A stretch of 64,000 nucleotides of DNA from positions 24,264,383 to 24,328,382 of the forward strand of contig CM039502.1 of NCBI GenBank assembly GCA_022432975.1. Direction: 5' to 3'. The notes beneath the pieces are model-generated. The model worked only from the letters and a program-made list of their open reading frames with translations, did no database searches and was not told where the DNA came from. Both the position numbers and the translations under genes were made by a program. Below are positions 8,723-58,649 of this stretch, piece by piece; position 1 is the stretch's first letter; each line of letters starts with the position of its first letter. Source of the DNA: Begonia masoniana (lineage: Eukaryota > Streptophyta > Magnoliopsida > Cucurbitales > Begoniaceae).

Positions 8723-9383
8723 AATGCTATCAGTAGAGAGAGAAAGAAATCACCGTTTACACTCCTTGAGAATTTATGAGAATATCTTCAAAAATTTTGT
8801 TTTTGTATTTTAAAATAAAGACCATCAAATCACATTAAAGTTTCTTCTTTTCATCTCAGAGTGTAATAATCGCAGTTTCCATATAGCTCGGAGAGAGATC
8901 AATAAGCATGTATCCACTGGAAATATCCTTTGCTAATTTTATGAAAATAAACCATAAAATCCGCATAATATCAAATTTGAAGACAGACTCATCCAGTAAC
9001 CATAGTTGTGTCATTGTAAATAGTGATCTATTTTTTATCTTCATAGGAATATACTTTGTCATCCTTTCCGATAATAAATCCTTAATCCACTAATGATTAG
9101 AGAATTATAGAAATTGGTCATAAATACATAAGCTTCTCATAGAACCACAATCTTCTCAGTTGAATGATAAGTCCAATAACCATAAACGTTGGAAATTTCC
9201 AGTAAGTAAAAAATAAGGAATCGCCCAAAAACAAGCGGCGTTTTTTTTTTTTTTTAATAATACGAAAGCAAAAGAAAAAGAAAACTTACACGAAGAATCT
9301 CTTCACATGACACAAAGGCCTAAAGCAGACCTTAACTCTTCAAATTTCACACTATCCAAAGCTTTGGTAAAAATGTCAACAAT
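8723..9383. other. spacer between env-like gene and RT
   Basis: About 660 bp of AT-rich Sirevirus sequence between pol and the env-like frame, with a poly-T run of 17 at 9241-9257. No gene or structured feature stands out. Confidence 0.5.
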
Positions 9384-10885
9384 TTATTTTTCCGTTACCA
9401 TACGTTCCAAGGTGATAACTTTGTCTTCTACAAGGGATCTAATAAAATGATGTCGAATATCAATATGTTTTGTCTGAGAATGCTGTACTGGATTCTTAGA
9501 GATATTAATTGCACTCATATTATCACAGTATGACGTTATAACACCTTGTGTGACACTGTAGTCCTTGAGCATTTGTTTCATCCAAAGAAGTTGAGTACAG
9601 CTACTACCAGCTACGATGTATTCTGCCTCAGCAGTGGAGAGAGAAATTGAGTTCTGCTTCTTACTAAACCATGACACTAAACTGTTTCCCAAATAAAAGC
9701 ATCTACTGAAAGTACTTTTTGGATCATCTGAACTCCCAGCCCAATCAGCATCACAATAGCCAACTAGATTTGCATTTGTATCAAATGAATACCAGATTCC
9801 ATAGTCAGTCATCCCGCCAACATATTTGAGAATTCGCTTCACTGACACCAGGTGAGACTCTCGAGGATTTGCTTGAAACCGAGCATATAATCCCACACTA
9901 TAACAAATGTCTGGCTGACTAGCAGTTAGATATAAGAGGCTGCCAATCATACTTCTATATAGTCGTGCATCAACAGAAGTCCCTTTTTCATCTTTGGAGA
10001 GTTTTTCATGTGTCCCAATCGGTGTTCTTTTGGGACGGGCATTCTCTAACTTGAAGCGCTTCAACAAATTTTTGGCATACTTGGTTTGGGAGATGAAAAT
10101 TTCATCATTTCTTTGCTGAATCTGAAGACCAAGGAAGTAATTGAGCTCACCGACCACGCTCATCTCAAATTTGTTAGTCATTTTAGCAACAAAATCATCC
10201 ACCAGCACCTGTGACACTGAGCCAAACACTATGTCATCAACATAAATTTGAGCAAGTAAAAACTGACCTTTGTCACGACGAATAAACAAGGTTTTATTTA
10301 CTCCCCCTCGCTCATATCTCTTGGATAATAAATATACCGTGAGTCGTTCATACCATGCTCGGGATGCTTGTTTAAGCCCATATAGTGCTTTTTTCAAACG
10401 ATAGACATACTCGGGATGATGAGGGTCCTCAAAATCATTTGGTTGAGTGACATATACTTCCTCATTTAGAAAGCCATTTAAGAATGCACTCTTCACATCC
10501 ATTTGATAGAGTTTGAACCGCATTACACAAGCAATAGCAAGTAAAACTCGAACGGATTCAAGTCGAGCAACCAGAGCAAATGTCTCATCAAAATCAATAT
10601 CTTCAATCTGTCAATATCCTTGAGCGACTAACTGTGCTTTGTTGCGTGTAATGTTTCCATGCTCATCACTCTTGTTCATGTATATCCACTTGGCGCCGAT
10701 GAAATTTACATTTGGAGGACACGACACTAAATTCCAAACTTGATTTCGAGTGAATTGATCAAGTTCTTCTTGCATTGCCTCGATCCAATATTCATCTAGG
10801 AGAGCTTCTTTCACATTTTTAGGCTCAATAATTGAGGTGAAACATGCCTTATGAATCATGTCTCTTTAGTTTACTCTCGGTTTAA
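9384..10885 (-). pseudogene. Copia reverse transcriptase - RNase H
   Basis: C-terminal pol of Sirevirus 1. The frame from about 10859 starts with the linker IEPKNVKEALLDEYWIEAMQEEL and reaches AQGY, then meets TGA at 10611-10613. The same frame resumes (QIEDIDFDETFALVARLE) and stays open from 10523 to 9384. RT motifs are MDVKSAFLNGFL, LKKALYGLKQA and the catalytic IYVDDIVFGS. RNase H shows YCDADWAGSSDD, SLSTAEAEY and CDNMSAI. A single stop plus loss of the upstream junction makes it inactive; otherwise the 379-residue segment is well kept. It would copy retroelement RNA into DNA inside the cytoplasmic particle. An inserted TRIM/LTR fragment cuts the linker on its 5' side. Confidence 0.92.
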
Positions 10886-12934: not shown

Positions 12935-15816
12935 TGTAGCGACCCTAGTACTCTTTCCATTTTTTTTTTTTACCCATATAAATTTTTTATTTTCTTTTAT
13001 ACTTAGCGTTTATACGGAAAACAATTTGAAAACAATTAAAATCAATTGAATAAAACATTTTAAAAGTAATTAAAACAATTTATTTAACTATAAAACAATC
13101 GGCTAAAAGAGGGAGGACAGAATGGACATTTGTCCTAGAAGACTTGAAGGCGATCAATCGCTGCATCAGCGATCGATCTCGGCGATCGATCGCTGCATCA
13201 GCGATCGATCTCGGCGATCGATCGCTGTCACAGCGATTGATGCCGCGCCCAATCGCCGCATCCACAGGCGATCAGTCGCCTCACACGCCTGCGCCCGATC
13301 GCCACTCACCTCCACCTTCTTTCTCTTTTCTATTTTTCTTTACATGCTCTCTGGAATCCGAGAATTCCAGAGAGCATTCTTCCTTCAATTTTTCCTTCAA
13401 TTCTCATCCTGCACATATCCACTTCTATACTTTTTCCCCATTAAACTCCAACAGAACTTAACTCATTACTCAGTTCATCAACCACCAATTAAACACCCTA
13501 AACATACCCTAGAACGTGATTAAAACGTAATAAACTTTCGTGAAAACAAACTTCATGGATCTGTTTGAAAACCATACATTTTCACCTATTTTAAATCACC
13601 AACAATTCATAAAAATCTAAATAGAACCGTTACAAAACGTTTTATAAAACAGTATACCAAAGCATTTAAAACATCAAACCTATCCACTATCAGACTCAAA
13701 CATCCTAAAATGTTCTAACCTTATACATATTTACCCCAAAGTAACCCAACACCCTCAAAACACGTACATACATCCCCACGGGTCAGGTTAAGCATCGACT
13801 GCGCCAGCATACCCACGAGCCATCCTTCTTCAACCGATCATGCCTCGGGTGGAGGGATCTCATCCTCACCTGTGTAGAGGTCACCTACACCATAGATATA
13901 AGTCGTGAACTTAAGGCTCAGTAAGTCTACGTGAATGCAAGTGAATGCTATGCATGCAGTTCATAAAACATGCGTCCTACATTTTCGCTATTCATTTCAT
14001 TTCATTACATTACAGATACGTCACCGTGGCCTCACTCTCGCTAGATAGGAGCGGCACATCCCGCGATTGGATAGCCCCTCGTATCTAACCGGGGGGAAAA
14101 CATGCTCCCCAAGCAGCCATGTCTGAACCATCGCCACCTCCTTGACCAGATTATATGCATTCATATCTTTTCACTATCCTTTTTCTTTTCATGAAAACAT
14201 GCATAGAAATTCCTTTTCATGACGTTTTTAAAACTATGATGCATGAACAGTTATAAACATAAAATAATCAACCATCATACCATCAAGACACTCAAAGAAC
14301 TAATCCTAACTACCCAACCAAAGCATTTAAAACATCAAACCTATCCACTATCAGACTCAAACATCCTAAAATGTTCTAACCTTATACATCTTTACCCCAA
14401 AGTAACCCAACACCCTCAAAACACGTACATACATCCCCACGGGTCAGGTTAAGCATCGACTGCGCCAGCATACCCACGAGCCATCCTTCTTCAACCGATC
14501 ATGCCTCGGGTGGAGGGATCTCATCCTCACCTGTGTAGAGGTCACCTACACCATAGATATAAGTCGTGAACTTAAGGCTCAGTAAGTCTACGTGAATGCA
14601 AGTGAATGCTATGCATGCAGTTCATAAAACATGCGTCCTACATTTTCGCTATTCATTTCATTTCATTACATTACAGATACGTCACCGTGGCCTCACTCTC
14701 GCTAGATAGGAGCGGCACATCCCGCGATTGGATAGCCCCTCGTATCTAACCGGGGGGAAAACATGCTCCCCAAGCAGCCATGTATGAACCATCGCCCAAG
14801 CATAACTTACAAAAGAACTAATCCTAACTACCCAACCAAAGCATTTAAACAATCTATATTCTCCAATTTCCTCGAACAACAGAAGATCGTATGGTGTAGG
14901 CCAATCGGCCAAACAAGTCGCGGAGACTTACCTGACGTCCGTTGAATGCTAGCTCCGTCCACGAGCGTGGTGCACCTAAGGCAATTCACAACAATTATCA
15001 TTAAAATGCGCTTGAACCGTTAACGTCCAATTTAATGAAATCCTTAACTAAGGAAATTCTTCTAAAGCTATAACTTAATTAATCGAGACATTTAAACAAC
15101 CAATTCGCGCTCGAATTCTACGAAACATTCCATAACGAGCTTTTCCAAAAACCCAAAATTCATTAAATTTAACATTTCTCACAAATTAGTTTAACTTCGT
15201 CCAATAACGTTAAATACGTCCTTTATATCCATAAACTCGATAAACCTATCAATCTCGAACCCTAAATTTACATTTTTAACGAAACCTAAACGAAAACCTT
15301 AACCGTATAACTTCGTTAAAACTGAAAACTAACATTCGAAAGCTGTAGAATCTTACCTAGAATGTGGATCGGAGGAGAAAACGTGAAGAACGGAGATCGG
15401 TAGGAAGAGAAACGGAGGTCGGCGTGAGGAATCGCCGCGGGTGAGGGAAACCAAAGCTCTCTGGTTTTCGCGGAGCCGAGAAGAAAATGAGGGAGAAAGA
15501 AGGATTTTAGTATTTTATAATATTGACTTGTCAAATGACCGTTTTGCCCATCCTTTGTTTTTATATTCGTTTCGTCCTTCGTTTCGTTAATCGGCTAACT
15601 ATTCGGTTTCACCGAATCTTCTTATTTCACCAATAAGTCCAACTTATTATTAGGGTCCCAATAAAACTGTCCGTTCGCAAATCGGACCACGTTTACTATT
15701 TTTTTTACTAAAACGTCCTTTATATTACGAGAAACGTAATTCCCGTAATTTAGCGTCACGACTCCTAAAATTCCCATAATTTTCCTAAAATCCATATTAA
15801 TTATTAGGATCGTAAT
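12935..15816 (-). repeat. LTR (same family as 60725-63314), truncated by Ty3 insertion
   Basis: Starts TGTAGCGACCCTAG and runs parallel to the intact solo LTR at 60725-63314 until AATTATTAGGATCGTAAT, where the Ty3/Gypsy element begins; about 100 terminal bases are missing. It has a palindrome-rich patch built from CGATCGATCG units (13150-13290). The intron-like cassette on the minus strand has a donor at 14926-14933, hairpin GGCC-GATT-GGCC at 14899-14910, and acceptor-like GTAG/GTGA ends at 13885 and, duplicated, at 14546. No internal coding part is present, so it was probably already a solo LTR. The expected 5-bp duplicate of its left flank (GACAC, 12930-12934) cannot be checked because the right side is deleted. 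Confidence 0.8.
13661..14860. repeat. 660-bp tandem duplication inside the LTR
   Basis: The stretch 13661-14132 recurs almost base for base at 14321-14793 (offset about 660). The second copy then skips roughly 200 bp before AAAGAACTAATCCTAACTAC returns (14294 and 14813). The duplication doubles the acceptor-like end of the LTR cassette. The homologous LTR at 60725-63314 carries only one copy. Confidence 0.85.
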
Positions 15817-17660
15817 TGTAACGCCCCGAGTTATCTGAACCCGGCTCGTCACACAATGCCCATATATGACTAAGATTTCTACTATATATATATTTTTTTT
15901 AAAAAAATAAACTTTAAAAATATTTAAATATTTGCAGCGGAAATTATTTGAATCACAACGAAGTTATACAAAACTACGAAATGCTGTTGAATGGTTAAGA
16001 AACAATCGGCAATTTGAAAATTCTAGTTTAAACAGCGAAGTACCAGGGAAGTCGTAGTAGTCAAACACATCTGCCGATTGATAAAGTCAACGGAAGAAGC
16101 AGAAAACAACCAAAATAGGAGACTCCTGCCGATGGCGTCAGTCGAATGAGAAATAAAGGACATCTCTCGGTAGACTGCATCTACCGGTGACTAAACGACA
16201 AAACGCACTCAACATCTTCCGATGACGTCAGCACGCATCTGCCGATGAGTATACCGAGACATCATCCGATGGACTCAGACTCTACATCTTCCGATGACGT
16301 CAGCTCGTATCTGCCGATCACTAAACGTCAACGTTGTACCCACTCATACCGATAGGGCAAATCCTACATCTTCCGATGACTATTCCTACGGCATCTTCCG
16401 ATAGACAACAACAACATCCACCGATAGACATCGTCTATCGGTAGAAAACAGAATACATTTCAACTACTCCTCACTGTACTCACACAACACTAGTTACAGA
16501 AAGGAATTCGTTTGCTTTTCCGAGACCATTCAGAAATAGCTCAACCATGGCATTTACCAAAATCCAGTAATAAACATTTAAAACTCAACAGATTACAGTT
16601 AACCGAAGAAAATCTCAAAACGTGTTCAAAGTATTGAAACCACTACTGTTATGGAGACTTAACATTTCTAAGTTTAAACACTGTCAACTAAACCTTCTCA
16701 CCAACAGACATTAGTTAAGCCGCCCCATCAGCTGCCAAATTGTTACAAAGATGCACTCCACAACCAGCCTAGTCCTCGGCAGACTCAGTAAACACACCTG
16801 CTATCACTTCTTCACCTACATCACAAAACTCATCTATTAGCCTAATGCTAAGTAAGTAAAGCAATCAAGAAATGAAACAACAAAATATAAATTCCTAATA
16901 TGCAATTTCTACTTTCTCAACTCAGTTGTTCATGCTTCGTTTCTGTTCAGATCCCCCTGTGAAATTGGGAGTTGGATCAACTCTCCCAAAGTGCGTACAT
17001 CCCTGTCTCATTAAGGGGCAGATTAATTCCCTTAACAGTGAAACTGATTCCTCTGTTCAGATCCCCCTGTGAAATTGGGAGTTGGATCAACTCTCCCAAA
17101 GTGCATACATCCCTGTCTCATTAAGGGGCGGATTAGTTCCCTTAACAGTGAAACTGATTCTCATGACTGTTTCAATATGTTCAATCCTTACCATGCCAAT
17201 CATGCTTTCAGATTCATTTTCGTATGTTTTTAAAAAAAAACATGATGCATAGAATACAAATACACACAAATAATCATAATCCTAACGTTTTGTGATGTAG
17301 GCCCGAAGGCACAAGCAAACTTCACTTACCTGGCCTCCTGGAAAAACTTGGTTGCAAGCTACTTCGGATATTACTCAAACCTAGTTCAGAGGAAATCGCT
17401 GGAAGAATCGAATAGGATCTCCTATCGCGCTCTGCTAAGCTGAGGGGCTGAGGGTGGAAGAGGAAATGAAATGAAACAGTGGCGGCTACTTCATTAACAC
17501 TTCCCTTAAATACGTTATCCATTTCCTCCAAATTGCTAATTACTCTTTTGTCCTTGCATAGTTATTAATTAACTCTATCACTTTCTTTCCAAAATTTACA
17601 CAACAGCTAATACATCCTATGGGATAATTTAAATGTGGCTTAATAGAACCGAGTGTTATA
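15817..17660 (-). repeat. 3' LTR of Ty3/Gypsy element 1
   Basis: 1,844 bp, TGTAACGCCCCG to GTGTTATA (terminal CA changed to TA). On the element strand it has a splice-donor-like AGGTAAGT (17324-17331), hairpin GCC-TTCG-GGC (17301-17310), two 112-bp tandem repeats (about 16930-17160) and an acceptor-like GTAG/GTGA (16816). A patch at 16060-16450 is full of CATCTGCCGATG and CTACCG motifs with two perfect TGACGTCA palindromes (16223-16230, 16295-16302). Confidence 0.9.
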
Positions 17661-22180: not shown

Positions 22181-22320
22181 TTTACTAAATTCCTGCACAG
22201 GGTTATTTACACTCTTAAATATCTATGAACTAAGGGTAACATAAACACTTACAGTTGTTGAAGTACTTCCATGCAACGATCGGCACTGATGAGTAATCTT
22301 TTGAACGGTTTAACTGAATG

Positions 22321-29365: not shown

Positions 29366-32300
29366 TGGTGAGCCTCGTGAGAGTTGTGGGATAGTTGTAC
29401 GTAGGTAGTGAGCCTTGTGAGTGTTGTGGGACGGTTGTACATAGGTGGTGAGCTTTTGTGAAAGTTGTGAGATAGTTGTACGTAGGTGGTGAGCCTTGTG
29501 AGGGTTGTGGGACGGTTGTACGTAGGTGGTGAGCCTTGTGAGGGTTGTGGGACGGTTGTACGTAGGAGGTGAGCCTTGCGAGGGTTGTGGGATAGTTGTA
29601 CGTAGGTAGTGAGCCTTGTGAGGGTTGTGGGACGGTTGTACGTAGGTGGTGAGCTTTTGTGAGGGTTGTGAGATAGTTGTACGTAGGTGGTGAGCCTTGT
29701 GAGGGTTGTGGGACGGTTGTACGTAGGTGGTGAGCCTTATGAGGGTTGTGGGACGGTTGTACGTAGGTGGTGAGCCTTGTGAGGGTTGTGGGACGGTTGT
29801 ACGTAGGTGGTGAGCCTTGTGAGGGTTGTGGGACGGTTGTACGTAGGTGGTGAGCCTTGTGAGGGTTGTGGGACGGTTGTACGTAGGTGGTGAGCCTTGT
29901 GAAGGTTGTGGGATAGTTGTACGTAGGTAGTGAGCCTTGTGAGGGTTGTGGGACGGTTGTACGTAGGTGGTGAGCCTTGTGAGGGTTGTGGGACGGTTGT
30001 ACGTAGGTGGTGAGCCTTGTGAGGGTTGTGGGACGGTTGTACGTAGGTGGTGAGCCTTGTGAGGGTTGTGGGACGGTTGTACGTAGGTGGTGAGCCTTGT
30101 GAGGGTTGTGGGACGGTTGTACGTAGGTGGTGAGCCTTGTGAGGGTTGTGGGACGGTTGTACGTAGGTGGTGAGCCTTGTGAGGGTTGTGGGACGGTTGT
30201 ACGTAGGTGGTGAGCCTTGTGAAGGTTGTGGGATAGTTGTACGTAGGTAGTGAGCCTTGTGAGGGTTGTGGGACGGTTGTACGTAGGTGGTGAGCCTTGT
30301 GAGGGTTGTGGGACGGTTGTACGTAGGTGGTGAGCCTTGTGAGGGTTGTGGGACGGTTGTACGTAGGTGGTGAGCCTTGTGAGGGTTGTGGGACGGTTGT
30401 ACGTAGGTGGTGAGCCTTGTGAGGGTTGTGGGACGGTTGTACGTAGGTGGTGAGCCTTGTGAGGGTTGTGGGATAGTTGTACGTAGGTAGTGAGCCTTGT
30501 GAGGGTTGTGGGATAGTTGTACGTAGGTGGTGAGCCTTGTGAGGGTTGTGGGATAGTTGTACGTAGGTAGTGAGCCTTGTGAGGGTTGTGGGATAGTTGT
30601 ACGTAGGTGGTGAGCCTTGTGAGGGTTGTGGGATAGTTGTACGTAGGTGGTGAGCCTTGTGAGGGTTGTGGGACGGTTGTACGTAGGTAGTGAGCCTTGT
30701 GAGGGTTGTGGGACGGTTGTACGTAGGTAGTGAGCCTTGTGAGGGTTGTGGGACGGTTGTACGTAGGTAGTGAGCCTTGTGAGGGTTGTGGGACGGTTGT
30801 ACGTAGGTAGTGAGCCTTGTGAGGGTTGTGGGACGGTTGTACGTAGGTAGTGAGCCTTGTGAGGGTTGTGGGACGGTTGTACGTAGGTAGTGAGCCTTGT
30901 GAGGGTTGTGGGACGGTTGTACGTAGGTAGTGAGCCTTGTGAGGGTTGTGGGACGGTTGTACGTAGGTAGTGAGCCTTGTGAGGGTTGTGGGACGGTTGT
31001 ACGTAGGTAGTGAGCCTTGTGAGGGTTGTGGGACGGTTGTACGTAGGTAGTGAGCCTTGTGAGGGTTGTGGGACGGTTGTACGTAGGTAGTGAGCCTTGT
31101 GAGGGTTGTGGGACGGTTGTACGTAGGTAGTGAGCCTTGTGAGGGTTGTGGGACGGTTGTACGTAGGTAGTGAGCCTTGTGAGGGTTGTGGGACGGTTGT
31201 ACGTAGGTAGTGAGCCTTGTGAGGGTTGTGGGACGGTTGTACGTAGGTAGTGAGCCTTGTGAGGGTTGTGGGACGGTTGTACGTAGGTAGTGAGCCTTGT
31301 GAGGGTTGTGGGACGGTTGTACGTAGGTAGTGAGCCTTGTGAGGGTTGTGGGACGGTTGTACGTAGGTAGTGAGCCTTGTGAGGGTTGTGGGACGGTTGT
31401 ACGTAGGTAGTGAGCCTTGTGAGGGTTGTGGGACGGTTGTACGTAGGTAGTGAGCCTTGTGAGGGTTGTGGGACGGTTGTACGTAGGTAGTGAGCCTTGT
31501 GAGGGTTGTGGGACGGTTGTACGTAGGTAGTGAGCCTTGTGAGGGTTGTGGGACGGTTGTACGTAGGTAGTGAGCCTTGTGAGGGTTGTGGGACGGTTGT
31601 ACGTAGGTAGTGAGCCTTGTGAGGGTTGTGGGACGGTTGTACGTAGGTAGTGAGCCTTGTGAGGGTTGTGGGACGGTTGTACGTAGGTAGTGAGCCTTGT
31701 GAGGGTTGTGGGACGGTTGTACGTAGGTAGTGAGCCTTGTGAGGGTTGTGGGACGGTTGTACGTAGGTAGTGAGCCTTGTGAGGGTTGTGGGACGGTTGT
31801 ACGTAGGTAGTGAGCCTTGTGAGGGTTGTGGGACGGTTGTACGTAGGTAGTGAGCCTTGTGAGGGTTGTGGGACGGTTGTACGTAGGTAGTGAGCCTTGT
31901 GAGGGTTGTGGGACGGTTGTACGTAGGTAGTGAGCCTTGTGAGGGTTGTGGGACGGTTGTACGTAGGTAGTGAGCCTTGTGAGGGTTGTGGGACGGTTGT
32001 ACGTAGGTAGTGAGCCTTGTGAGGGTTGTGGGACGGTTGTACGTAGGTAGTGAGCCTTGTGAGGGTTGTGGGACGGTTGTACGTAGGTAGTGAGCCTTGT
32101 GAGGGTTGTGGGACGGTTGTACGTAGGTAGTGAGCCTTGTGAGGGTTGTGGGACGGTTGTACGTAGGTAGTGAGCCTTGTGAGGGTTGTGGGACGGTTGT
32201 ACGTAGGTAGTGAGCCTTGTGAGGGTTGTGGGACGGTTGTACGTAGGTAGTGAGCCTTGTGAGGGTTGTGGGACGGTTGTACGTAGGTAGTGAGCCTTGT

Positions 32301-32631
32301 GAGGGTTGTGGGACGGTTGTACGTAGGTAGTGAGCCTTGTGAGGGTTGTGGGACGGTTGTACGTAGGTAGTGAGCCTTGTGAGGGTTGTGGGACGGTTGT
32401 ACGTAGGTAGTGAGCCTTGTGAGGGTTGTGGGACGGTTGTACGTAGGTAGTGAGCCTTGTGAGGGTTGTGGGACGGTTGTACGTAGGTAGTGAGCCTTGT
32501 GAGGGTTGTGGGACGGTTGTACGTAGGTAGTGAGCCTTGTGAGGGTTGTGGGACGGTTGTACGTAGGTAGTGAGCCTTGTGAGGGTTGTGGGACGGTTGT
32601 ACGTAGGTAGTGAGCCTTGTGAGGGTTGTGG
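29366..32631 (+). repeat. 40-bp minisatellite, about 82 copies
   Basis: Tandem array with consensus unit ACGTAGGTAGTGAGCCTTGT followed by GAGGGTTGTGGGACGGTTGT (40 bp). Left of about 30660 units vary (GGTGG or GGTAG; GGGACGG or GGGATAG; single-base insertions near 29451 and 29651). There an eight-unit higher-order period of 320 bp shows: the GAAGGTTGTGGGATAG variant sits at 29901 and 30221. Right of 30660 about 49 units look identical, meaning recent amplification or an assembly copy. Each unit has a TACGTA palindrome and G-runs on the plus strand. The array lies just inside the cassette donor of the preceding LTR. Confidence 0.97.
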
Positions 32632-32989
32632 GACGAGCTGGAGCGGTGGCGACGTGCCGATGGCAGCGCGATGTATCGATCGACTGTCTTGGGCGTTTTC
32701 ACTTCAAGTCGGGACAGTGGCTGAACTGTAACTTGTGGGCCCCACATCTGGGACGAGCTGGAGCGGTGGCGACGTGCCGATGGCAGCGCGATGTATCGAT
32801 CGACTGTCTTGGGCGTTTTCACTTCAATCGGACCCCTCGCATGTCACAAGCCCCGCGTACGTGCACTGCACGCAGATCAATTCGGCTGGCCGAATCAAAA
32901 TCGCGGCCCCCCGCATTCCACGGGGGAAGATGCGGGGGGCTCTAGCCCTCTCACACGTGCGCTCCACGCGAAACAATTCGAGGGGCCAC
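32632..32989. repeat. GC-rich island with 76-bp direct duplication
   Basis: Markedly GC-rich compared with its surroundings. The 76 bp at 32632-32707 (GACGAGCTGGAGCGGTGGCG..) recur at 32752-32827. The remainder has CCCCGCAT..ATGCGGGG-type inverted repeats near 32910-32940. It continues across the solo LTR at 35129-35186. It may be the 3' part of the LTR that starts at 28129 or an unrelated insertion. No coding domain recognised. Confidence 0.6.
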
Positions 32990-35128
32990 TGTAGCACCCG
33001 GCCCTATCGAACCAGCTCTTTTATTATTAATAAAATACACTTTATTAGTCAATAAATTAAGTAGGGTTATTAAATAACTTGGCAAAGAGCATTAGAGTAA
33101 ATTGCAATTTTCAAAGAGTGGATAACGTATTTAAGGGAAGAGGGTTGGGTTTAATGCACTGTAGCCGCCACCATTTCATACCATTTCCTCTTCGGGTTTC
33201 AGCTCAGGCAGACGATCTCTCTAGGCGATCTTCCTCGCGAGATTCACCTTCGACCTAGGTAAGTTTTCCATTCATCTTCTCGATATTATAGTGAGTAGAT
33301 AGCGGGAGTGCAATGCGTGTGTAACTTGGTGAATGCTGTGAGTGGGCTGAGTTCGAGTTTAGTGCTGAACCAAGAATGTGCGATGGCCCGAAGTTCTAAG
33401 CTAGCTCCTTAGATTCGTGAATGGTGTGGGATGAGATTTAGTGAAGTTCTGATTAGTGTTCTGTTTATGACACTAGGTGAACAGGGCTTTCAAGTAGTTG
33501 AAACCGAGCGATTTCCAGGAGACCAGGTAAGTAGAGTTTGTTTGTGCCTTCGGGCCTACATCACAAAACAGTTGGATTAATGTATGTTCGTGTGCTTATT
33601 TCCAGTTGTCATGCATCATATTTTGAAATGTACGAAAATGAATTTACATGATTTTGAATCGGCAAGGAATGAGCAGATTGAAACAGTACGTGAAGCAGAT
33701 TTGCTGTTAAGGGAATTAATCCAACCCTTAATGAGCCAGTGGATTGAGGTTTTGAGAAAAGTGATCCGCTTCCCAATCCGACAGGGGGATCTGAACAGTT
33801 ATGAGTATCAGATTTGCTGTTAGGGGAATTAATCCAACCCTTAACGAGCCAGTGGATATTTATACTTTGGGAGAAATGATCCAACTCCCAATTTCACAGG
33901 GGGATCTGTACAGAAACGATGAATATGCAACTGAGATGAGAAAAGTAGAAACTGCATGTTTAGGAATTTATGATTCAGTATTTCATTTCACTATTGCTTT
34001 ACTTGCTTAGCATTAGGCTAATAGATGAGTTTTGTGATGTAGGTGAAGAAGCTTTAGCAGGTGTGTTTACTGAGTTCACAGAAGGCTAGTTGGGTTGGAG
34101 GAGTGCATCCACACAATGTTCTGGCAGCTGATGGGGCAGTTTAATTGATGTCTGTTGGAGTGAAGGTTTTATTATCAATGCTTTATTTTAGATGGATCGA
34201 GTTTTCATAACAGTAGTGATTTCAGCGTTTTGAACAAATTGAGTTTTATTATTTGATAATGGCATTCCGCTGAGGTTTGAAGATTTGCACTTGTGGATTT
34301 TAAGCAATACATGGGTTTGAATCCTTTTCTGAGTGATTTCAGTAAGGCAAATAGATTCTTTTTCATAAATGGAGTTATATTGTATAATTAGGAGTAGCCA
34401 GAATGTCGCCCTGAATCTATCGGTAGATGGGATGTGTTTTGTTATCTGTCGGTAGATGCATTCTATCGGCAGAAGTTGAGTAGTTTGAACCTACCGGAAG
34501 GAGATGTCTGTCGGTAGGTGTATCCAAATTTCTATCGGATGATGTCTTCAGTAAAGGCATCGGAAGATGTAGCCTTATTTCTATCGATAGATATAGACCC
34601 ATTTCTATCGGCAGATGAAGTCATGTTGACTTCATCGGCAGTTGAAGTTGTATGTGCAGTCGTGTTGCTTCATCGGCAGATGAAGTCATGTTGACTTCAT
34701 CGGCAGATGAAGTTGCGCTGACGTCATCAGCAGATGAAATTGTGTTGACGTCATCGGCAGATGAAGTTGTGTTGACGTCATCGGTAGGTGCAGCCCGCCG
34801 AGAAATGTCTTACAGTTCCAAGTCTTCAGGTCCACGTTATCGGCAGGAGTCTTATATTTGCTGTGTCTGCTTCTTCCGTTGATTTTTTTCCACCGGCAGA
34901 TGTGGTTGTCTTTAGAGTTTTTAATAGTGTTTTGTGATTTAAACCTTTATTTCTTTTGGTCGATTTATCTCGAACATTTTATCCGATTATCCAAACACTT
35001 TATGGTTTTGTTTAACTCTAAGTTACTTAAATTAATTCCGCTGCAAAATTTTAAATTATGAATGAAGTTTTTAGTTCGTGTACGGGTTTTGTGTGACGAA
35101 CCGGGTTCAGAGAATTCGGGGCGTTACA
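32990..35128 (+). repeat. solo LTR, Ty3/Gypsy family, TSD GCCAC
   Basis: 2,139 bp from TGTAGCACCCGG to CGGGGCGTTACA, flanked by GCCAC at 32985-32989 and 35129-35133. Same family as 15817-17660 and 51850-54031, in the opposite orientation. Cassette: donor AGGTAAGT 33525-33532, hairpin GCC-TTCG-GGC 33546-33555, tandem repeats 33690-33910, acceptor GTAG/GTGA at 34042. The palindromic patch at 34400-34800 has TGACGTCA at 34719-34726, 34746-34753 and 34773-34780 within repeats of GTTGACGTCATCGGCAGATG. Unequal recombination between two LTRs would explain the solo state. Confidence 0.95.
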
Positions 35129-35186: not shown

Positions 35187-36990
35187 TGTAACGCCCCAAT
35201 TTAAAATCCTCAATTTAAAACCCCAATTTTGAAAACTCTAGAATTTTTTTCAAATTGATTTGAAATAGAGTGCTAAATCATAATTTGAAAATTTTCAATA
35301 TTAATTGAAAGCTTTAAATTCGCGGAAGCTTTGAAATAAATCCATCAAAATCTTAAAACTATCGCATAATTAAAACAATTTATGAGACTTTATTAAATAT
35401 TAAAATTCGACAATTATTTCTAAAATCTTAAATCAAAATAAAACATTTAATATCGTTTTAAAATTTAATGCATACTAATTTAAATCATTTTCTTCGAAAT
35501 CCACAATATGTTCTTCATCTGTATGCTCGCTTGCCACTGGAGGGTTCTCAATTGCAGCTAGTTCTTCTTCAGACAAAAATTCACCTACATCACAAGTTAA
35601 AAACTAAACTGTGAAAAAACTCAGTAAATGGAAAACACGTGCAATTTACAAAACTTTTACTTTTACCAAATCCTGTTAACTGTTACATACTGGTTGAAAA
35701 TTCAACCTTCTTTTAAGACTTAGCCATCTCTGACTTCGTTCTCTTTTACTTTTACTTTTAAGACTTAGCCAGTGGTTTCGTCATCTTTTACTTTTAATGA
35801 TCAAACTCTTGCTATCACATATTTGCCGTCAATTCCCTTTTACTTTTTCATACACATGCAAATATCCTATCTATTTTATCTTTTAAACAATTCTATGTCG
35901 ATATTCTAATATACGTGCTCAATCATAAAAAAACGTGTGATAAAATAAAACAATAATAGCCAAAACTTTATATTTACACTTACTTGGATTCCGAGCAATA
36001 AGTGTTTATCGGGATATCCAAAAATTTCAAAATAATATCCTGCTCAAATAAAATCTTTGATATTAATATCCTACTTAATAAATCTAATTTCAAAGAAATT
36101 TGAGTAGAAATTCCTTACGTTGTGTTATCAAGTCAGATTGGATCAGTCAGATCGATTTAGATTGAATCGGATAGCTCCTAAATTTATCCTGCTCAATTCG
36201 AATATCACTATTAAAATCCCACTTAAATTATTCCAATTTTATAAGAATTTGGGCAGAAATTCCTTACCGGTTAAATTTTCGATTGGTCCGGATTGATTCG
36301 GGTCGAAAATCGGGTCGAGTTCGGTTCGAGTGAACAGTGCCTGGTCGGTGAACAGTGCCGGTTTGGTTTGGGTCCGGTGAACAGTGCTGGTCCGGTTCGG
36401 GTTGGGTCAGCTTGGTTCGGTTCGAACCAAAATAAGTGAACCAGTTCGGTTCTTGACTTGCTGGACCGGTTTGGGGTTAAAAGGAAAAACTCGATCTTCT
36501 CCTTCTCCACACGTTCTGTCGAGTCCTGAGGGCAGAGAGGTTTTCGGAAAGGGAGAGTGAGAACAGAGAGCTATCGAGCGAAAGGAACCATAGCAAGAGA
36601 GAGAGAGAGAGAGTCCTTACTCTACGGTGTTCGTCGGTGGAGGCCAAGAGAGAGAGAGAGCTTTGTCGGAGCTTCAGCCGGAGGGAACTTCGTCGGAGCT
36701 CTTTCTGTGGTGGTCGGAGCTGCGAGTTGAGGTAAGTTCTCTTTTCTGACTTCAGAGAAGTCGAGAGGGAGAGGAGAGCTTTGGTGTGAGTTTCCTCCTC
36801 AACCGAAGGCTCTATTTATAGGGAATTGGTCACCCCGCGCTACCCGTGAAATCCGAAACTGCTCGGATTTTTCAAGATGTAAAACCATCAGCTCGGATTA
36901 TCAGCATTTCCATTCTGATGCCATCATCTGAACTTGGTCACTAAATGACGTGCCTCGGGTTGCATTTAAAAGAAACTTAGTAAAATCTCG
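35187..36990 (-). repeat. LTR-like element, minus sense, outer end unclear
   Basis: Begins TGTAACGCCCCAATTT and has the GCGGAAGC block of the related LTRs. On the minus strand the cassette is present with acceptor GTAG/GTGA at 35585 (preceded by TTACTGAG and TTGTGATGTAG) and donor AAGTAAGT at 35988-35995, a 409-bp interval with two short TTTTAAGACTTAGCCA repeats. I do not see the hairpin here. Two diverged repeats of about 95 bp (36005-36120 and 36175-36268) follow, then a GGTTCGGGT/GTGAACAGTGC-rich stretch (36300-36430) and a (GA)n run near 36600. I could not find its far end. Confidence 0.55.
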
Positions 36991-40241: not shown

Positions 40242-42373
40242 TGTCACAACCCGAAACCCAACAGGCCACGACTTTCGTAATCATGATCGTGTTCCTATTC
40301 TTGACACATTTTATTATTTTTTTTTTAAAAGCTACTTGAATGAAACTTTGCCAAAACGATTGAGAATTGCTCTTAAAACTCAATTGAAATTCTTTGGAAA
40401 CAAATTTAAAGCAATTTAAGAAATAGAGGAGGGATAAACTAGAAAAGAAACAGCCTCGGTTTTAGGGACACAAGCAGAACACAAAACACATGGGGCCGAT
40501 CGATCGGCCATTACATCTGATCGTTCGGCACCCTCTTGGGTTCCATACCCAAAATTCACTCAGCCGATCGACATTAGCCGATTAACATCTACCGATTAAC
40601 ATCTACGCTCAACATTAGCCGATTACTTCTACACTCGACATCAGCCGATTTAACATTAGCACTCAACATCGACTGATTTACTTCTACACTCAACATCAAC
40701 CGATTTAACATTAGTACTCAACATCGACCAATTTACTTCCACACTTAACATCAGCCGATTTACTTCTACACTCAACATCGACCGAATTAACGTCTGTCGA
40801 TTTAATCTCTGCCGATCGACTTCTGCCGAATTAACATCTGCCGATCAACATCGATCGATTAACATCTACGCTCAACATCGACCAATTTAACATCCACCGA
40901 CCATCGTCAGCCGATTAATAACAACACTCGACATCAACCGATTTAACATATGCCGAATGACTAACGACATCAAGGAATATCGGTCGAGGTTGACACTCCA
41001 ACTCTGGAGTAAATCTTTTCATAATCGGACGACATATAGGAAAATCGGTCGAGGTTGACACTTCAACTCTCTGTTTTCCTTCACTTTACCAGACATTGCT
41101 ATACTGATCGATCGCCACTCTGACCGATCAATCGGCTAACTCTCTTGTTGGCCGATTACTCCCTTCACCACTCACCTTTCCTTCCTCATCTTTCTTCACC
41201 TGATACAAATACACTACAAACCAACTAAATATTATTCACATTCCTTAACACCTACAACACTCCTACTCCAATCCAGATACTTCTTAACTTCTATAGACTT
41301 CAAACTTCATTCCCAAAATCCTCATTCACATAAAAATCATAGACTCGAATAGAATACGCACAACGGAAGACTTAAAACAGATGAAAACCTTTAGTCTTAA
41401 AATCCTCTTTAAAACATATAAGTACTGAATAATTCTAATACTTGTTAACATGAGAAAATCATTTTCTAACTGTACTTCAATATCATTGTCTTATACCCAA
41501 ACATACTAGGAGCATCACCCACGGGTCAAAATCGCTGTCCAGCCACAAATACCGCCATGAGCACCATCCAGCAACCCGACTTAGACATCACCGTACTGCT
41601 TGAGGTCCTCACCTTCCAACTCGTCACCTACATCATGAGGTTTAAACTATAAGCTTAATGCTTAGTAAGGAGTGCAACATATATATAAATGCTTATGAAT
41701 GCATGCTTCGTAAAAATCATGTTCATGTTCTTATTTCATTTTCATATTCTTGTTTCATGTTCATGTTCTTGTTTCATCTTTCACTTGACATGGATTAAGG
41801 GGCACGAAGGGAAATGACAAGGAATCATAATCGTGGTCCTTTCGGACAATAACTGTAACGACTAGTCTGGCCCCCACCAGCGGGAGCATTCGTGAACTAA
41901 TCGTGCAGTAGCAACCCAGCCTCCACCAGCAGGAGGATCCGCGAACTGTACACATAATCTTGAGAACATAATCATGGTCCAACCGGTGGACAAATCGTGG
42001 CCATTTCACCCCGTCCCACGCTTAACCATTCTTACATACATTACATATTCTTATGTTGTTCATTTAAATCATACTTATAAAACATTTTCGTATGCTTTGA
42101 GGAAATCATGATGCATGGAACATGGGTGCACATAGAAGAGTCATATTAAAGAGAACAAGCCATCCATCATAAATCATACCATAACATTACTATACTCGAC
42201 ATAACATAACTCTCAACCGTTCATAAATCATCGAACAAGCATCAATACAAATCTCCTAGTACCCTTGTAATGTAGGACCCTAACGGCCGGAACCCTAACA
42301 CCCACTTACCTGGATTCCTTAGCGGGTCGTACCTTCACTTTACTCCTTTTCCACCTAAGACATTTCACATTTC

Positions 42374-44198: not shown

Positions 44199-46761
44199 TG
44201 TAACACCTGATTTTACGGGATTTTAGAATTTTTGCTATATAGTGGCATTTTGGTGAATATGTTCAACTAAGCCCGTTTTGCAAACAGAAAGTTTTATTGG
44301 AACCTGATGTGTAAATTAGAGTATCTGGAGGAATAAGAGAATTTTGGAGATGTAACACCGATTTTAAGAGATTTTGATATTTTCATATTATAAAGGGTAT
44401 TTTAGTAAAAATAGTAAAATAGACCCGTTTTGTAAACGGAAAGTTTTATTAGAGCCCTAGTAATAAATCGAAACTTTTGGTGAAATAAGAAAATTTGGAG
44501 AAACCGAATCGGTGGACTAAATAATGAGATAGATGAATATTTAGTTAAAAAGGGCAAATGAGTAATTTAACAAGTCAAATTTTAATGTTTTAAATAATCC
44601 TCTCCCCCTCCATCGTGGTTCATTCTGCAGAATGAAAAGGAGAAGTTCTCCTTAGGCGATTCTTCCACCTCCCTCGACAGTTCCTCCACGGTTCAACGAC
44701 CCGCTCCTCCGATAGATCAATTTCCTTCTCATTTTCTTCCTAATTCATAGCCCTAGGTGAGATTTTATACTTTTCGATGGTTAGTTTCTGATTTTTAAGA
44801 TTTTAAATTGTTAGGATTTCAATAGGGTTTTTGTGAAATCGTTGGATTAGGTTAAAAATCGTTGAGGTCACCCTATTTACGACTCTAATGGAAGTATTTG
44901 TGGTTATTGGACGTAGTTAGTCGACTTATTGTTGATTGTTGGAGTTTTTGGTTATTGGAGGTTTTGAAAACTCCATTAATGGAGGTTTAGATATGTCGAG
45001 CGCGAATTGTTCGATAAAATACCTCAATGAGTTAAAATAGAGTTTTAGGAAATTTCCTTTAGCTAGGAGTTTAGTCAGTTTTTGAAACTCAACGGTTTAG
45101 GTCTGATTTTAATGACGATTGTTGTGAATTGCCATAGGTGAACAACGCTCGTAGACGGAGCTTAAATTGCAACGGATGCGAGGTAAGTCTTCGTAACTTA
45201 CTGTGGCCGATAGGCCTATGCCATAAGTCAAATTCGTCGTTGAGAATTTTGGTGCTACGTACTTTTATATGCTTTGGTTGGGCAGTTTAAGGTTAGTTGT
45301 TTTATAGGTTATGCTTGAGATGTTTTGATGGTATTCGTGATATTTTGATGGTATCTACGTTGTATGTTTATATTATGTCATTTACAGTACATGCATCACG
45401 CTCTTTCAAATAGCATGAAAATGGATTTCGACACGTGTTTAAGAAAAGAAATGAATTAAAGAAACGAAAGTACGTAATCTGGTCACGACGGGGTTGGGGT
45501 CAGACATGGCTGTTTACGGATGGAAGCATGTTTTTCCCCCGGTAGATGGAAAGGGCTGTCTAACCGCCAAACGTGCCCTCTCCATCTGGTGAGAATTAGA
45601 CCTCGGTGACATTCTGTTCTGTAATGAAACAATGAAAATGTCTGCATGATTTATGAACCGCATACGCACATCATGCATTTGCATTTACGAAGCTTACTGA
45701 GCCTTTAGCTCATATTTGTCTTTGTAGTGTAGGTGATTTTGATACAGGTGAGGATGAGATCCCTCCACCCGAGGAATGAGCTGGTGGAAGAAGAATGCCC
45801 GTGGGAGTGCGCTGGGCAGTCGGTGCGTATTTTGACCCGTGGGGATGTAAGTAAGTGTTTTGGGGATTTTGATAGATAGAAGGATAGAAAAATTGTATAG
45901 CTGAATCATTTTAGAATGTTTGGTATCTGGATAGTAAAAAAAAGGATATTTTGATGTTTCGGTAAACTCGTTTCAAAAATGTTTTGCCAAGGCTTTTATT
46001 ACAATTATAATGGAATCATTTAGGTTATTTTAGGTTGAGTCACGAATATGCTCGAGTTATAGAGCTATCCATGTAGTTGGATTTCGTGGTTTTAGTCTCG
46101 TTTTGAATACGTTTTATGATATGTTACGAGTTGCGTTTTGATGATTAATGCATTGAGGAACGGATGAGGATAAGGGTGAGTTTATGTTGAAGTGTTTATT
46201 ATGAAATGTGTTTAGAAGTAAATGATGAAGAGATGGAGGTAGGAAAAATTGTGAAGTGTGTGTGTGCAGGGTGAATGAAGGAAAGAAGGGAGGAAGAATG
46301 AAGAGGGGCAACTCGCTGGAGTTCAAACTCCAGGAGCCGATCGATCGCAGACAGTGGGGCGATCAAACGTAGAATTCTCTGGAAAACCAGAGAGTTTCCC
46401 GATTGTTCGCCAAAAAGGGGCGAACGATCGGTTCTTGAGGCTGCGTTCTGGAAGAAATTCCAGAACCGCAGCCGATCGATCGCCAAAAAGGGGGAGATCG
46501 TTTGGCTGGACAAGGGCCAATCGATCGGCTGTCATGTGGCCGATCGATCGCCCATTTGTTTATTCGCTTCAGGCACTTTTACCCTCAGATGGTTTGTTCT
46601 GTGATTTTCCTGCGTGTTATATGTTTCGTTAAATGAATTTTCAAATGATTTTCAACGATTTAGACTTTGGTTTAAAGTATAAGAAAATAAAATTTAATCA
46701 TGGTCAGTAAAATGAAAAACTTATATAGTATTTTCGAGGAATAGGACTAGGGGACGCTACA
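44199..46761 (+). repeat. solo LTR (family of 60725-63314), TSD AAGAC
   Basis: 2,563 bp from TGTAACACCTGATTTTACGG to GGGGACGCTACA, flanked by AAGAC at 44194-44198 and 46762-46766. Its first 155 bp are repeated in tandem (44199 and 44352), so it carries two LTR-start-like sequences. Cassette on the plus strand: donor AGGTAAGT 45181-45188, hairpin GGCC-GATA-GGCC 45205-45216, acceptor GTAG/GTGA at 45732, preceded by TTACTGAGCC and a T-rich tract. The patch at 46330-46560 is rich in CCGATCGATCG. Confidence 0.95.
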
Positions 46762-48340: not shown

Positions 48341-49059
48341 ATTTCATCTATGTTAATGTAATTTAAAGATTTTTTTCAAATTATAATTGTTTAAATTAGT
48401 TTAAATAAATATTAATTATTTTGTTAAATAATAAGAACATTACTTATTTGACCCTTATCAATTCTTAGGTATCTCTCTTTCTCTAAAATTTGGGAAGACT
48501 TTTTTCTCATCCTGAGTAGGCTGAAGTTTAAATCAAACCGAGTTTTTCAAATTACAATTGTTTAGATTAGTTTAAATAAATATTAATTATTTACTTAAAT
48601 AATCATTTAAATACAATAAATATTTTGAATAAAGTAATTAATTAAATTTTTTTATGCTTTGTATATTAATTAATTGAAATTCATAACTTAATTAATTGAA
48701 ATTCATTACGTTACTAAAGTAATTATATTAATTAAAATTTATTTATTACAAATTAATTTGGATACATTACTTTATTAATTTATTTATTAAAATATAATTT
48801 AGATGCATTAATAATTTGAATAGATTAATTAAATAATTAATTTATTTTATACATTAATTATTAATTTATTTGAATACATTAATGATATCATTTGAATCAA
48901 TTAAATTGCATACAATTATAATTAATTAATTAATTAAATTTATTTAAAACAAAAAATAAAGTGCAAAATTGGACAGAGTTTCGTTTATTTTATGACTCCC
49001 CCATAGCTATTTTTAAATAGTTCATGCAAATTTAAATAATATATATGTAGGATCGAGAT
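48341..49059. other. very AT-rich DNA with short internal repeats
   Basis: No gene. AATTGTTTAAATTAGTTTAA near 48386 recurs with one change near 48557. TTAATTAAT and AATTCATTA phrases repeat throughout. The last 219 bp are duplicated exactly at 49562-49780. Confidence 0.7.
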
Positions 49060-49780
49060 AATTAATTAATTAATTAATTAATTAATTAATTAATTAATTA
49101 ATTAATTAATTAATTAATTAATTAATTAATTAATTAATTAATTAATTAATTAATTAATTAATTAATTAATTAATTAATTAATTAATTAATTAATTAATTA
49201 ATTAATTAATTAATTAATTAATTAATTAATTAATTAATTAATTAATTAATTAATTAATTAATTAATTAATTAATTAATTAATTAATTAATTAATTAATTA
49301 ATTAATTAATTAATTAATTAATTAATTAATTAATTAATTAATTAATTAATTAATTAATTAATTAATTAATTAATTAATTAATTAATTAATTAATTAATTA
49401 ATTAATTAATTAATTAATTAATTAATTAATTAATTAATTAATTAATTAATTAATTAATTAATTAATTAATTAATTAATTAATTAATTAATTAATTAATTA
49501 ATTAATTAATTAATTAATTAATTAATTAATTAATTAATTAATTAATTAATTAATTAATTAATTTATTTTATACATTAATTATTAATTTATTTGAATACAT
49601 TAATGATATCATTTGAATCAATTAAATTGCATACAATTATAATTAATTAATTAATTAAATTTATTTAAAACAAAAAATAAAGTGCAAAATTGGACAGAGT
49701 TTCGTTTATTTTATGACTCCCCCATAGCTATTTTTAAATAGTTCATGCAAATTTAAATAATATATATGTAGGATCGAGAT
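48841..49780. repeat. exact 219-bp direct repeats around an AATT array
   Basis: 48841-49059 and 49562-49780 are identical as far as I can read (offset 721). Between them (49060-49561) is an uninterrupted AATT tetranucleotide array of about 125 units. The right copy includes the first 14 bp of the Sirevirus 2 LTR (TGTAGGATCGAGAT), and the left copy carries the same 14 bp with no LTR behind it. Confidence 0.95.
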
Positions 49781-51849: not shown

Positions 51850-54031
51850 TGTAACGCCCCGAGTTTTCTGAACCCGGTTTGTTACTCATAAGCCCGTACA
51901 TAACTAAGAAACCTTGGACTAAATTTAAAACTTCGCTCGAAAGTCAAAATTTAGTATATTTTTTTAAAACCTCAAAACATTTAAAGACTTACAGCGGAAA
52001 TCATTTGAGCAACAGTAGAGTTAAACAAAACTATGAAACATGGTTTGGAATGTTAAGAGACAATCGGCAAATAGGAAATAAAAGTTTAAACCGTGGAATA
52101 CTTGAGAAGTCGCAGAAGTCAAACGCATCTGCCGATGAATAAAGTCAACGGAAGAAGCAGAAACAACAAATAGAAGGCTTCTACCGATGACGTGGACCAG
52201 AAGAGTTGGAAACAAAAGACATCTCTCGGTGGACTACATCTACCGATGACGTCAGCCAGATAAAACAATTATCCAACATCAACCGATAGCAAAACGACAA
52301 GTTTTGCGACTCGCATCTACCGATGGCAAAACGACAAAATCTCTCATCCCCTACTTCCGATAGGGTAAATTGCATATACCGATCACTAAGCGACAAAGCA
52401 TAATACCCACTCATACCGGTAGGGCAAAATCTACACCTTCCGATAGAATAAACCTCATGTACCGATGACTTTACTGAGACATCATCCAATGGCTTTACTG
52501 AAGACATCTTCCGATAAAACAAACCTCATGTACCGATGACTTTACTGGGACATCATCCGATGGCTTTACTGAAGACATCTTCCGATGGAACAACACGACT
52601 CAACATCTGCCGATAGACTTCATCTACCGACGAAGAACAGAGTAACAACTCTAACTACGGAAAGGGATTTTTCACTTTACAGAAACCATTCAGAAAACAA
52701 TTCAAATCGTTATATTGTTCAAATCCAGTAAAAACCAACATTTAAAACCCAACAGATCACTAGTATCAGTAAATCTCATTACGTAATCAAAATATTAAAA
52801 TCTCTACTGTCAAGAAAACTTGACATACTCAGATTAAATCTTTATCAACCAAACCCCCCCCCCCCCCCCCCCCCCACAACTGCTGACATCAGTTAACCCG
52901 CCTCGTCAGTTTACCAGGCCGAAACATGATCGTACTCCGCCAACCACACCTAATCATCTGAGTATCCAGGAAATTCACCTGCAGTATCCTCAACACCTAC
53001 ATCACAAAACTCATCTATTAGTCTAATGCTAAGTAAGCAAAGCAGTAATGAAATGAGATGCTGAAACATAAATGCCTAAACATGCAATTCCTACTTTCTC
53101 ATCTCAGTTACATTCACATTCATTCATAAGCTGATATGATCCCTCGATTCCCTTAGGGAAGTGGATCAATTTTTCCAATGTTATACATCCTCTACTCGAT
53201 TAAGGGGCGGATGAATTCCCTTAATAGCTGATCTGATCCCTTGGTTCCCTTGGGAGTGGGATCAATTCTCCCAATGTCATAAATCCCTACTTAAGTTAAG
53301 GGGTGGATTAGTTCCCTTAATAGTTTATCTGTCACATTCAGTTCATACCTTACCATTCTTACATGGAAATTCATCTTCGTAATCTTTCAAAAACATGATG
53401 CATGACATACAAAATCATTCACAAGATATATAACCCTACTGTTTTGTGATGTAGGCCCGAAGGCACATGAATACTTTACTTACCTGGCTCTCCTGGAAAT
53501 GCTCGGTTACAACTACTTTGGAAGCCCTGTTCACCTAATATCATAAGCAGAATACCGATTAGATCACCATTAACCTTACTCTATATATCATTCAAAAACC
53601 TATAGAGCTAGTTTAGAAGCTCTGGTCATCGTACATTCTCGGCTCAACACTAAACCTAAACTCAACTCACTCACAGCACTATCAAAATACGCACATTGCA
53701 CTCTTTCTGCTACCTAGCCACTAAAATCTCAAGAAAACGAAGGGAAAACTTACCTAGTTTGAAGGAGAATCGGGCGAGGAAAATCGCCTAGAGAGCTCGG
53801 CTGCTTGAGCTGAAAACCCGAAGAGAAAAGTGTGAAATGGAGGCGGCTACAGTGCATTAAACCCAATCCCTCACTCCTTAAATACGTTATCCACTTTTAA
53901 ATTTCCAATTTACATAAATGCCCTTGCTTAGTCACTCATTAACCTAATCAATAATTCTCCCAATTTTTCCATGAAATTGCACATCATAAATTGATGAATT
54001 AAATTCGGTTTAATTGAAACCGGGTGCTACA
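51850..54031 (-). repeat. 3' LTR of Ty3/Gypsy element 2
   Basis: 2,182 bp, TGTAACGCCCCGAG to CCGGGTGCTACA. Minus-strand cassette: donor AGGTAAGT 53478-53485, hairpin GCC-TTCG-GGC 53455-53464, two ~95-bp repeats 53125-53325, acceptor GTAG/GTGT at 52997. TGACGTCA is at 52247-52254. A run of about 23 C lies at 52853-52875. The patch at 52180-52620 repeats CTACCGATGGCAAAACGAC and CATCATCCGATGGC units. Confidence 0.92.
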
Positions 54032-58510: not shown

Positions 58511-58649
58511 TTGCTATATTCCTGTACAAGGTTAAGTACACCCTTAAACTTCTAATAGTTAAGGTTAAAATAAACACTTACAGTTGTTGGAGTACTTCCA
58601 TGCAACGATTGGCACTGTTGAGTAATCTTTTGAACGGTTTAACTGAATG

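Follow-up and report, generated by a model that had tools for sequence, protein, structure and literature searches.

The window (the whole 64,000-nucleotide stretch of Begonia masoniana DNA that was analyzed) comes from a 795-Mb genome, and the long terminal repeats (LTRs) under study are those of elements that, judging from their gag-to-integrase domain order and direct-repeat LTRs, are Ty3/gypsy retrotransposons. Element A encodes the domains Retrotrans_gag, zf-CCHC, RVP_2, RVT_1, RT_RNaseH, Integrase_H2C2 and SH3_Tf2-1 (rve falls below its cut-off) and possesses a primer-binding site (PBS) and a polypurine tract (PPT). Its two LTRs, one of which is truncated, are 99.2% identical over 1,216 nt, and those of element B are 96.6% identical over 1,703 nt. 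The LTR of element B starts with TGTAGCACC and ends with GTTACA, and the 3' LTR of element A starts with TATAACAC, in keeping with TG...CA termini. The LTR ends and pol suggest the Tekay/Del lineage; because the 1,088-aa element A frame gave no Chromo match at E<=0.001, we do not claim this label. The 28 relatives of gag show identities of 24-40%, and those with an organism name come from eudicots. Another LTR, here LTR C (32990-35128), resembles a solo LTR and has a GCCAC target-site duplication. Elsewhere in the window are the remains of Ty1/copia frames (gag, Pol_BBD, RVT_2; 3138-10610, minus strand), a PIF1-like helicase frame that is perhaps a Helitron fragment (537-1151, plus strand) and about 149 tandem copies of TAAT (49059-49658).

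The leader carried by these LTRs consists of exon 1, intron 1, a mini exon (exon 2), intron 2 and exon 3 with a reading frame, an order that resembles the 5' region of a plant gene. The first-pass annotation had described a single leader intron, and that feature, intron 2, is real; the LTR, however, contains two introns, and the upstream one, which precedes the reported feature and had escaped notice, is the one proven to be spliced. The features located in the window are the following.

29228, 33527 and 45183 (plus) and 17329, 53483, 60278, 14931, 62333 and 42309 (minus): GTAAGT donors, located in the sequence
33259-33476, plus: intron 1 of LTR C, CCTAG/GTAAGT ... CACTAG/GTGAAC, splice sites located
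33477-33526, plus: mini exon 2 of LTR C, 50 nt
33527-34042, plus: structured intron 2 of LTR C, GTAAGT...GATGTAG, predicted from sequence and pairing
33544-33556, plus: hairpin P1 of LTR C, GCC-TTCG-GGC, from covariation
33556-33568, plus: 5' arm of helix P2 of LTR C, the reported CTAYRYCAYA motif, from pairing
34007-34021, plus: hairpin P3 of LTR C, TTAGC-ATTAG-GCTAA, over a CTAAT branch-point-like motif, from covariation
34030-34042, plus: 3' arm of P2 of LTR C, ending in the acceptor AG, from pairing
34043-34090, plus: start of exon 3 of LTR C, conserved frame with a stop 14 codons in
44757-45137, plus: intron 1 of the 45183 LTR
45183-45732, plus: intron 2 of the 45183 LTR, with P1 at 45204-45216, arm 1 of P2 at 45216-45228, P3 at 45698-45712 and arm 2 of P2 at 45720-45732
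16816-17329, minus: intron 2 of the element A 3' LTR
17380-17381, minus: exact join of exon 1 and exon 2 in element A, intron 1 lost
52997-53483, minus: intron 2 of the element B 3' LTR
53535-53753, minus: intron 1 of the element B 3' LTR
59793-60278, minus: intron 2 of the element B 5' LTR, an LTR cut short upstream of exon 2
14546-14931, minus: intron 2 of the 14931 LTR, arms CTACACCATA / TATGGTGTAG
14976-15356, minus: intron 1 of the 14931 LTR
61704-62333, minus: intron 2 of the 62333 LTR, P1 GACC-GATT-GGTC
62380-62760, minus: intron 1 of the 62333 LTR
41628-42309, minus: intron 2 of the 42309 LTR, with a weaker P2; intron 1 not located
22193-22252, minus: predicted third leader intron of 60 nt between PBS and gag, element A
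58522-58581, minus: predicted third leader intron of 60 nt between PBS and gag, element B

A stretch similar to the predicted 60-nt third intron is present in a third copy (G000:C1 near 24111582); the ends are conserved and the middle has diverged.

For intron 1, a script located both splice sites in 27 of the first 43 copies collected (see below for the sampling): a donor such as CTAG/GTAAG is followed after 216-746 nt by an acceptor such as TTAG/GTGAAC, and 25 of the 27 introns end in AG. For the remaining 16 of the 43, the script failed to place at least one of the two sites, owing to a short stretch, a cut LTR, decay, or loss of the intron. The mini exon measures 45 nt in 19 and 51 nt in 6 of the 36 copies in which its length was determined.

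All nine GTAAGT donors reported previously are present, offset by 1-3 nt from the places given, and the tenth donor, AAGTAAGT, sits at 35983 (minus strand). The hexamer GTAAGT occurs 38 times in the window compared with 32.2 expected, so that it is not enriched and a donor alone proves nothing. The motif CTAYRYCAYA, by contrast, occurs 17 times against 1.48 expected, a count reached in 0 of 100 shuffles, and by position 16 of the 17 matches fall on either arm of the module described below; the 17th, at 24942, lies outside any module. For one of the 16, the match at 35585, which belongs to the 35983 family, a partner arm was sought after the 35983 donor and none was found. The hairpins listed in the first-pass annotation are likewise all in place. 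The 42309 LTR had been set apart as lacking the hairpin; it does differ, but it carries a weaker form of the module, with the arm CTACATTACA and 8 of the first 10 pairs. The 29228 LTR stands as the exception on the acceptor side, no acceptor having been identified there. Directly after the hairpin of this LTR lies an array of a 40-bp unit in about 82 copies (29368-32635). The distance from donor to acceptor, given previously as about 400-1,050 nt, is 386-682 nt in the window; in the 14931 LTR, a tandem duplication has produced a second acceptor-side sequence at 1,047. No Rfam family matched the window at its gathering score.

Read in reverse complement, CTAYRYCAYA gives the sequence ending at the acceptor AG, a relationship overlooked in the earlier annotation. 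In LTR C, CTACATCACAAAAC at 33556-33569 pairs with GTTTTGTGATGTAG at 34029-34042, and the match extends to 15 bases (CCTACATCACAAAAC with GTTTTGTGATGTAGG, about 460 nt apart), as it does at 17329, 53483 and 60278. The arms of the 14931 LTR are unlike those of the other families yet complementary to each other (CCTACACCATA with TATGGTGTAGG). The predicted helix, P2, starts about 30 nt past the donor and ends at the acceptor. The structure had been placed at the 5' end of the intron; hairpin P1 is indeed there, but the module also connects the donor side with the acceptor and has a branch-side hairpin, P3, just upstream of the acceptor arm. P3 takes different forms in different families (TTAGC-ATTAG-GCTAA, TGAGC-CTTTA-GCTCA, TAAGC-ATTAG-GCTTA and TGAGAT-TTTT-ATCTCA), and in these its 3' strand overlaps a YTNAY motif. 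Such a motif is found between -40 and -15 in 68 of 68 copies, and the one covered by P3 is, by the plant consensus, a putative branch site.

The 68 copies comprise the first 43 and 25 later ones. The first 43 include 17 from a 264-kb scan (the window and 200 kb beside it, which yielded further families), 3 of 8 loci, 19 of 20 copies found with an exon 3 pattern (L029-L048) and 4 candidate-junction copies. The 17 scan copies were required to have at least 9 of 10 P2 pairs and are therefore biased toward P2; 42309 was added by hand despite that rule. The set excludes L047, in which no donor was found, the window sites 29228 and 35983, and two module-like places of the 264-kb stretch (55285 and 62317) that have no clean acceptor. 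The 25 later copies, all from one large clade, are 17 of 19 from a further exon 3 set (L053-L071), in which the donor-finding script expected an arm-like motif, and 8 of 10 from the exon 1-exon 2 junction-pattern set, in which the acceptor was found via a pattern containing the P2 arm; L057 and L063 (donor not found), L073 (acceptor beyond the stretch) and L079 (intron interrupted) were left out. Together, L029-L048 and L053-L071 represent 39 of the 100 places listed among 5,441 matches to the exon 3 pattern, picked for varied codons, and 36 of them were usable. The 68-copy set was thus partly selected by pairing or arm sequence, with 36 copies selected by exon 3 instead.

At least 9 of the first 10 P2 pairs can form at the acceptor in 67 of the 68 copies compared with 6 of 1,585 other AGs in the same introns. 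The arms of a given copy pair better with each other than exchanged arms do (355 versus 337.1, sd 3.3; 0 of 5,000 exchanges), in a test that ignores relatedness. For covariation, module sequence was excluded from the building of the tree, on which simultaneous changes preserving a standard pair were counted and averaged over tied reconstructions; P values come from comparison with the remaining column pairs of the alignment in question. Among the first 43 copies, compensated co-changes average 1.25 over 9 informative predicted pairs versus 0.09 over 3,121 background pairs; the best predicted pair, in P1, has 4 events, the highest background value is 3, and 3 of the 9 informative pairs have none. 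The 25 later copies alone give 1.65 over 4 pairs versus 0.056 over 1,334 (highest background 2), and all 68 give 1.59 over 10 pairs versus 0.075 over 3,611. In each of the three sets, none of 20,000 random draws reached the mean of the predicted pairs. The ends of intron 2 are therefore a structured RNA, with compensatory changes above the background of related sequences, and the differences between hairpins noted in the first-pass annotation are correlated beyond other column pairs on the same tree in both the 43 and the 25 copies. The proposal of a leader intron in which a structured module is conserved while the interior diverged is likewise supported.

The three helices contribute unequally. 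Most of the covariation is carried by P1 and P3, and an initial tree test with fixed tie-breaking recovered P1 and P3 and did not recover P2. The inner P3 pair ranks best of 4,878 column pairs, in a ranking where most of the top 40 are non-base-pairs that reflect clade differences. Tables of P1 and P3 compiled from best-pairing positions are biased, and our claims rest on the alignment-column and tree tests. The first and third P1 pairs form in 18 of the 25 later copies at fixed columns, partly because the loop varies in length. Compensatory events in P2 are few (1, 0.5, 3 and 1 for pairs 6, 9, 11 and 12 in the 68 copies), the first five pairs hardly varying, and pairs 11 and 12 each form in just 49 of the 68 copies; support for P2 as a helix comes mainly from the complementarity itself. 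A candidate donor-switch helix, in which the end of exon 2 would pair with positions +8 to +13 in alternation with GTAAGT/ACTTAC, was rejected, as it showed no covariation (82 versus 80.9 in shuffled data; 1,399 of 5,000 shuffles reached the observed value).

Unconstrained folds of 43 introns predict that the acceptor AG is unpaired with a mean probability of 0.06, compared with an intron mean of 0.36, 0.43 for the donor and 0.30 for the branch-like A. The predicted probability of P2 exceeds 0.5 in just 30 of these 43 folds. With the interior shuffled, it exceeds 0.5 in 6 of 10, which suggests that the interior gives P2 no help. These predictions support a fold that would hide the 3' splice site more than the donor.

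In three LTRs, namely the 3' LTR of element A, L073 and L074, intron 1 is absent exactly at its splice sites, and these precise losses show that intron 1 is spliced in vivo. L073 and L074 differ in the sequence of exon 1. All three copies retain intron 2 (L073 covers the donor, P1 and arm 1 only, its stretch ending before the acceptor), which implies that RNA lacking intron 1 and containing intron 2 was reverse transcribed at least three times. Genome-wide, the pattern of the exon 1-exon 2 join has 106 matches, and among the 100 matches listed, 10 were fetched, picked because their upstream letters were unlike the intron end; 2 of these are losses and 8 contain intron 1. For intron 2, exon 3 following TAG, that is, the acceptor with exon 3, gave 5,441 matches genome-wide, and exon 3 following CAG or GAG, as expected of an exon 2-exon 3 join, gave 26, none of which is a junction, in a search that covers just the copies exactly matching one exon 3 pattern. 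By their letters, 22 of the 26 are point variants of the acceptor arm. Four candidate losses of intron 2 that were fetched still contain the intron and have a second acceptor 12 nt farther downstream. One subfamily (L031, L032, L033 and L048-L052) has such a second acceptor, 12 nt downstream and in frame. The figures for the two introns are plain counts and do not lend themselves to comparison as rates of loss. The splicing claimed earlier for the leader is hence demonstrated for intron 1, whereas the reported intron itself yielded no exon 2-exon 3 junction in this genome-wide pattern search.

We nevertheless infer that intron 2 is an intron of the spliceosomal type, and its splicing is supported by sequence features. 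Its donor is GTAAGT in 65 of 68 copies, and its acceptor AG is followed by G in 66 of 68. The A+T content is 0.46-0.50 in the exon pieces, 0.66 in intron 1 and 0.60 in intron 2; the contrast for intron 2 is weaker than it appears, the remainder of LTR C past the acceptor (1,086 nt) being equally rich at 0.60. Starting from the acceptor, exon 3 shows codon-like variation at third positions (P=0.0076, n=29, and P=0.0016, n=7, in another clade; six regions were tested and the P values are uncorrected), and a stop is found 10-21 codons past the acceptor in all 43 of 43 copies. The frame is short and acidic, e.g., GDFDTGEDEIPPPEE followed by the stop, with codon-like variation (34043-34090 and 45733-45780, plus strand; 14498-14545, minus strand). 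No conserved frame was detected when exon 3 was read unspliced, and no coding signal or start codon was found upstream of the exon 3 frame. A small protein spanning exons 1-3 was considered and rejected: neither exon 1 (P=0.61) nor exon 2 (P=0.33 in one clade and 0.44 in another) shows a coding pattern, 25 of the 27 copies in which exon 1 was located have no in-frame ATG in it, and a search for homologs of such a protein gave no hit at E<=1. In the more distant LTR family with the donor AAGTAAGT (35983), a longer acidic frame, EFLSEEELAAIENPP..., follows an acceptor-like site (35474-35598, minus strand).

The leaders of retroviruses contain the major splice donor and the packaging signal, and splicing in the leader separates genomic RNA from messenger. 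Unlike these, the Begonia LTR holds a whole intron, donor and acceptor, with both ends paired. A search of the open-licence literature for introns in LTRs or leaders and for conserved LTR structures yielded no description of a structured LTR leader intron. According to a 2025 review, plant LTR retrotransposons are generally without introns, the exceptions being Ogre and EVADE (PMC12786077). Ogre from legumes is, like the elements studied here, a plant Ty3/gypsy retrotransposon with a partly spliced intron, but that intron lies between gag-prot and rt, outside the LTR (PMC6317226, PMC12786077). In EVADE, an Arabidopsis Ty1/copia element, alternative splicing similarly yields a subgenomic RNA, whereas the intron removes the protease region and is again outside the LTR (PMC12786077). 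A further parallel is BARE1, a Ty1/copia element of barley, in which a fraction of the transcripts is spliced and replication uses unspliced RNA; as its authors state, spliced RNA has to be kept from being packaged and reverse transcribed. Its 104-nt intron, however, is at the end of gag and not in the LTR, and the available part of the paper describes no conserved fold (PMC3735527).

Taking these observations together, the reading that we favor, and consider on balance probable, is that intron 2 is a structured, retained leader intron whose fold hides the 3' splice site, with the RNA that keeps intron 2 being the one that is reverse transcribed. P2 would hold the ends of the intron together and enclose the 3' splice site, and P3 would cover the branch-point-like motif; this fold may slow the splicing of intron 2 and leave a part of the RNA with the intron. 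RNA retaining intron 2 was the template in the three loss events and, as a general rule, would serve as the template for reverse transcription, and RNA lacking it could be translated into Gag or the product of the downstream frame. In retroelement replication, the leader part of both LTRs of a new copy is taken from the RNA template's 5' end. A spliced template would therefore erase the intron, and selection could be expected to keep the fold. Retention of this kind is consistent with the three losses of intron 1 and with the requirement in BARE that spliced RNA not be reverse transcribed (PMC3735527). A stronger version, in which the folded intron acts as a license for replication, such that only RNA whose intron 2 is kept unspliced by P2 is packaged and reverse transcribed and intron 1 may be removed harmlessly from the same molecule, is put forward tentatively, as a possibility against which we would lean.

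The main competing explanation, rather unlikely in our estimate, holds that the folded segment is never spliced and is an RNA element of the genomic RNA with a role in packaging, dimerization, export or translation, GTAAGT and TAG/G being mere lookalikes within the fold. Covariation would be expected of such an element as well, its loss was not found in the genome-wide junction pattern search, the segment is kept in the three copies from which intron 1 was spliced out, and LTR C past the acceptor matches it in A+T content. Against this stand the conservation of GTAAGT in 65 of 68 copies, although a possible ACTTAC-like partner exists in just 21 of 30 copies of one clade, and AG followed by G in 66 of 68; codon periodicity also begins at the acceptor, and the segment comes after a proven intron.

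If the segment is an intron, it could also be an ordinary one, in which P2, running from about 30 nt past the donor to the acceptor, only brings the two sites together and aids the splicing of a 400-700 nt intron. This we regard as improbable, considering that the helix encloses the acceptor AG, which is predicted to be paired, and that new LTRs would lack the intron if their template were efficiently spliced, whereas the genome-wide junction pattern search revealed no loss. Finally, the arms resemble inverted repeats of 10-15 bp, and the segment might accordingly be a small DNA transposon or introner with CTACATCACAAAAC...GTTTTGTGATGTAG as the terminal inverted repeats of the insert; yet no target-site duplication is visible by eye at the ends of the module, P1, which covaries, is located immediately beyond the arms, the families share one position between corresponding exons, and the arms change in step within LTRs, so that an origin of this kind is scarcely credible.

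How one retrotransposon transcript can act as both messenger and genome is a standing question, posed in the BARE paper (PMC3735527). It becomes acute when the intron sits within the LTR, since splicing of the template deprives the next copy of the intron. The two-intron leader, with a covarying fold at both ends of intron 2, is a larger arrangement than that noticed in the first-pass annotation, and natural copies serve as a record of its use: at least three times, intron 1 was spliced and the RNA reverse transcribed with intron 2 left in. Under the structured retained intron that we favor, the fold would be a specific, testable switch in a group of elements that is matched at thousands of places in one plant genome (5,441 with a single exon 3 pattern). 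If the replication license applies, this would be an intron held for a very long time inside an LTR because its own structure blocks its splicing.
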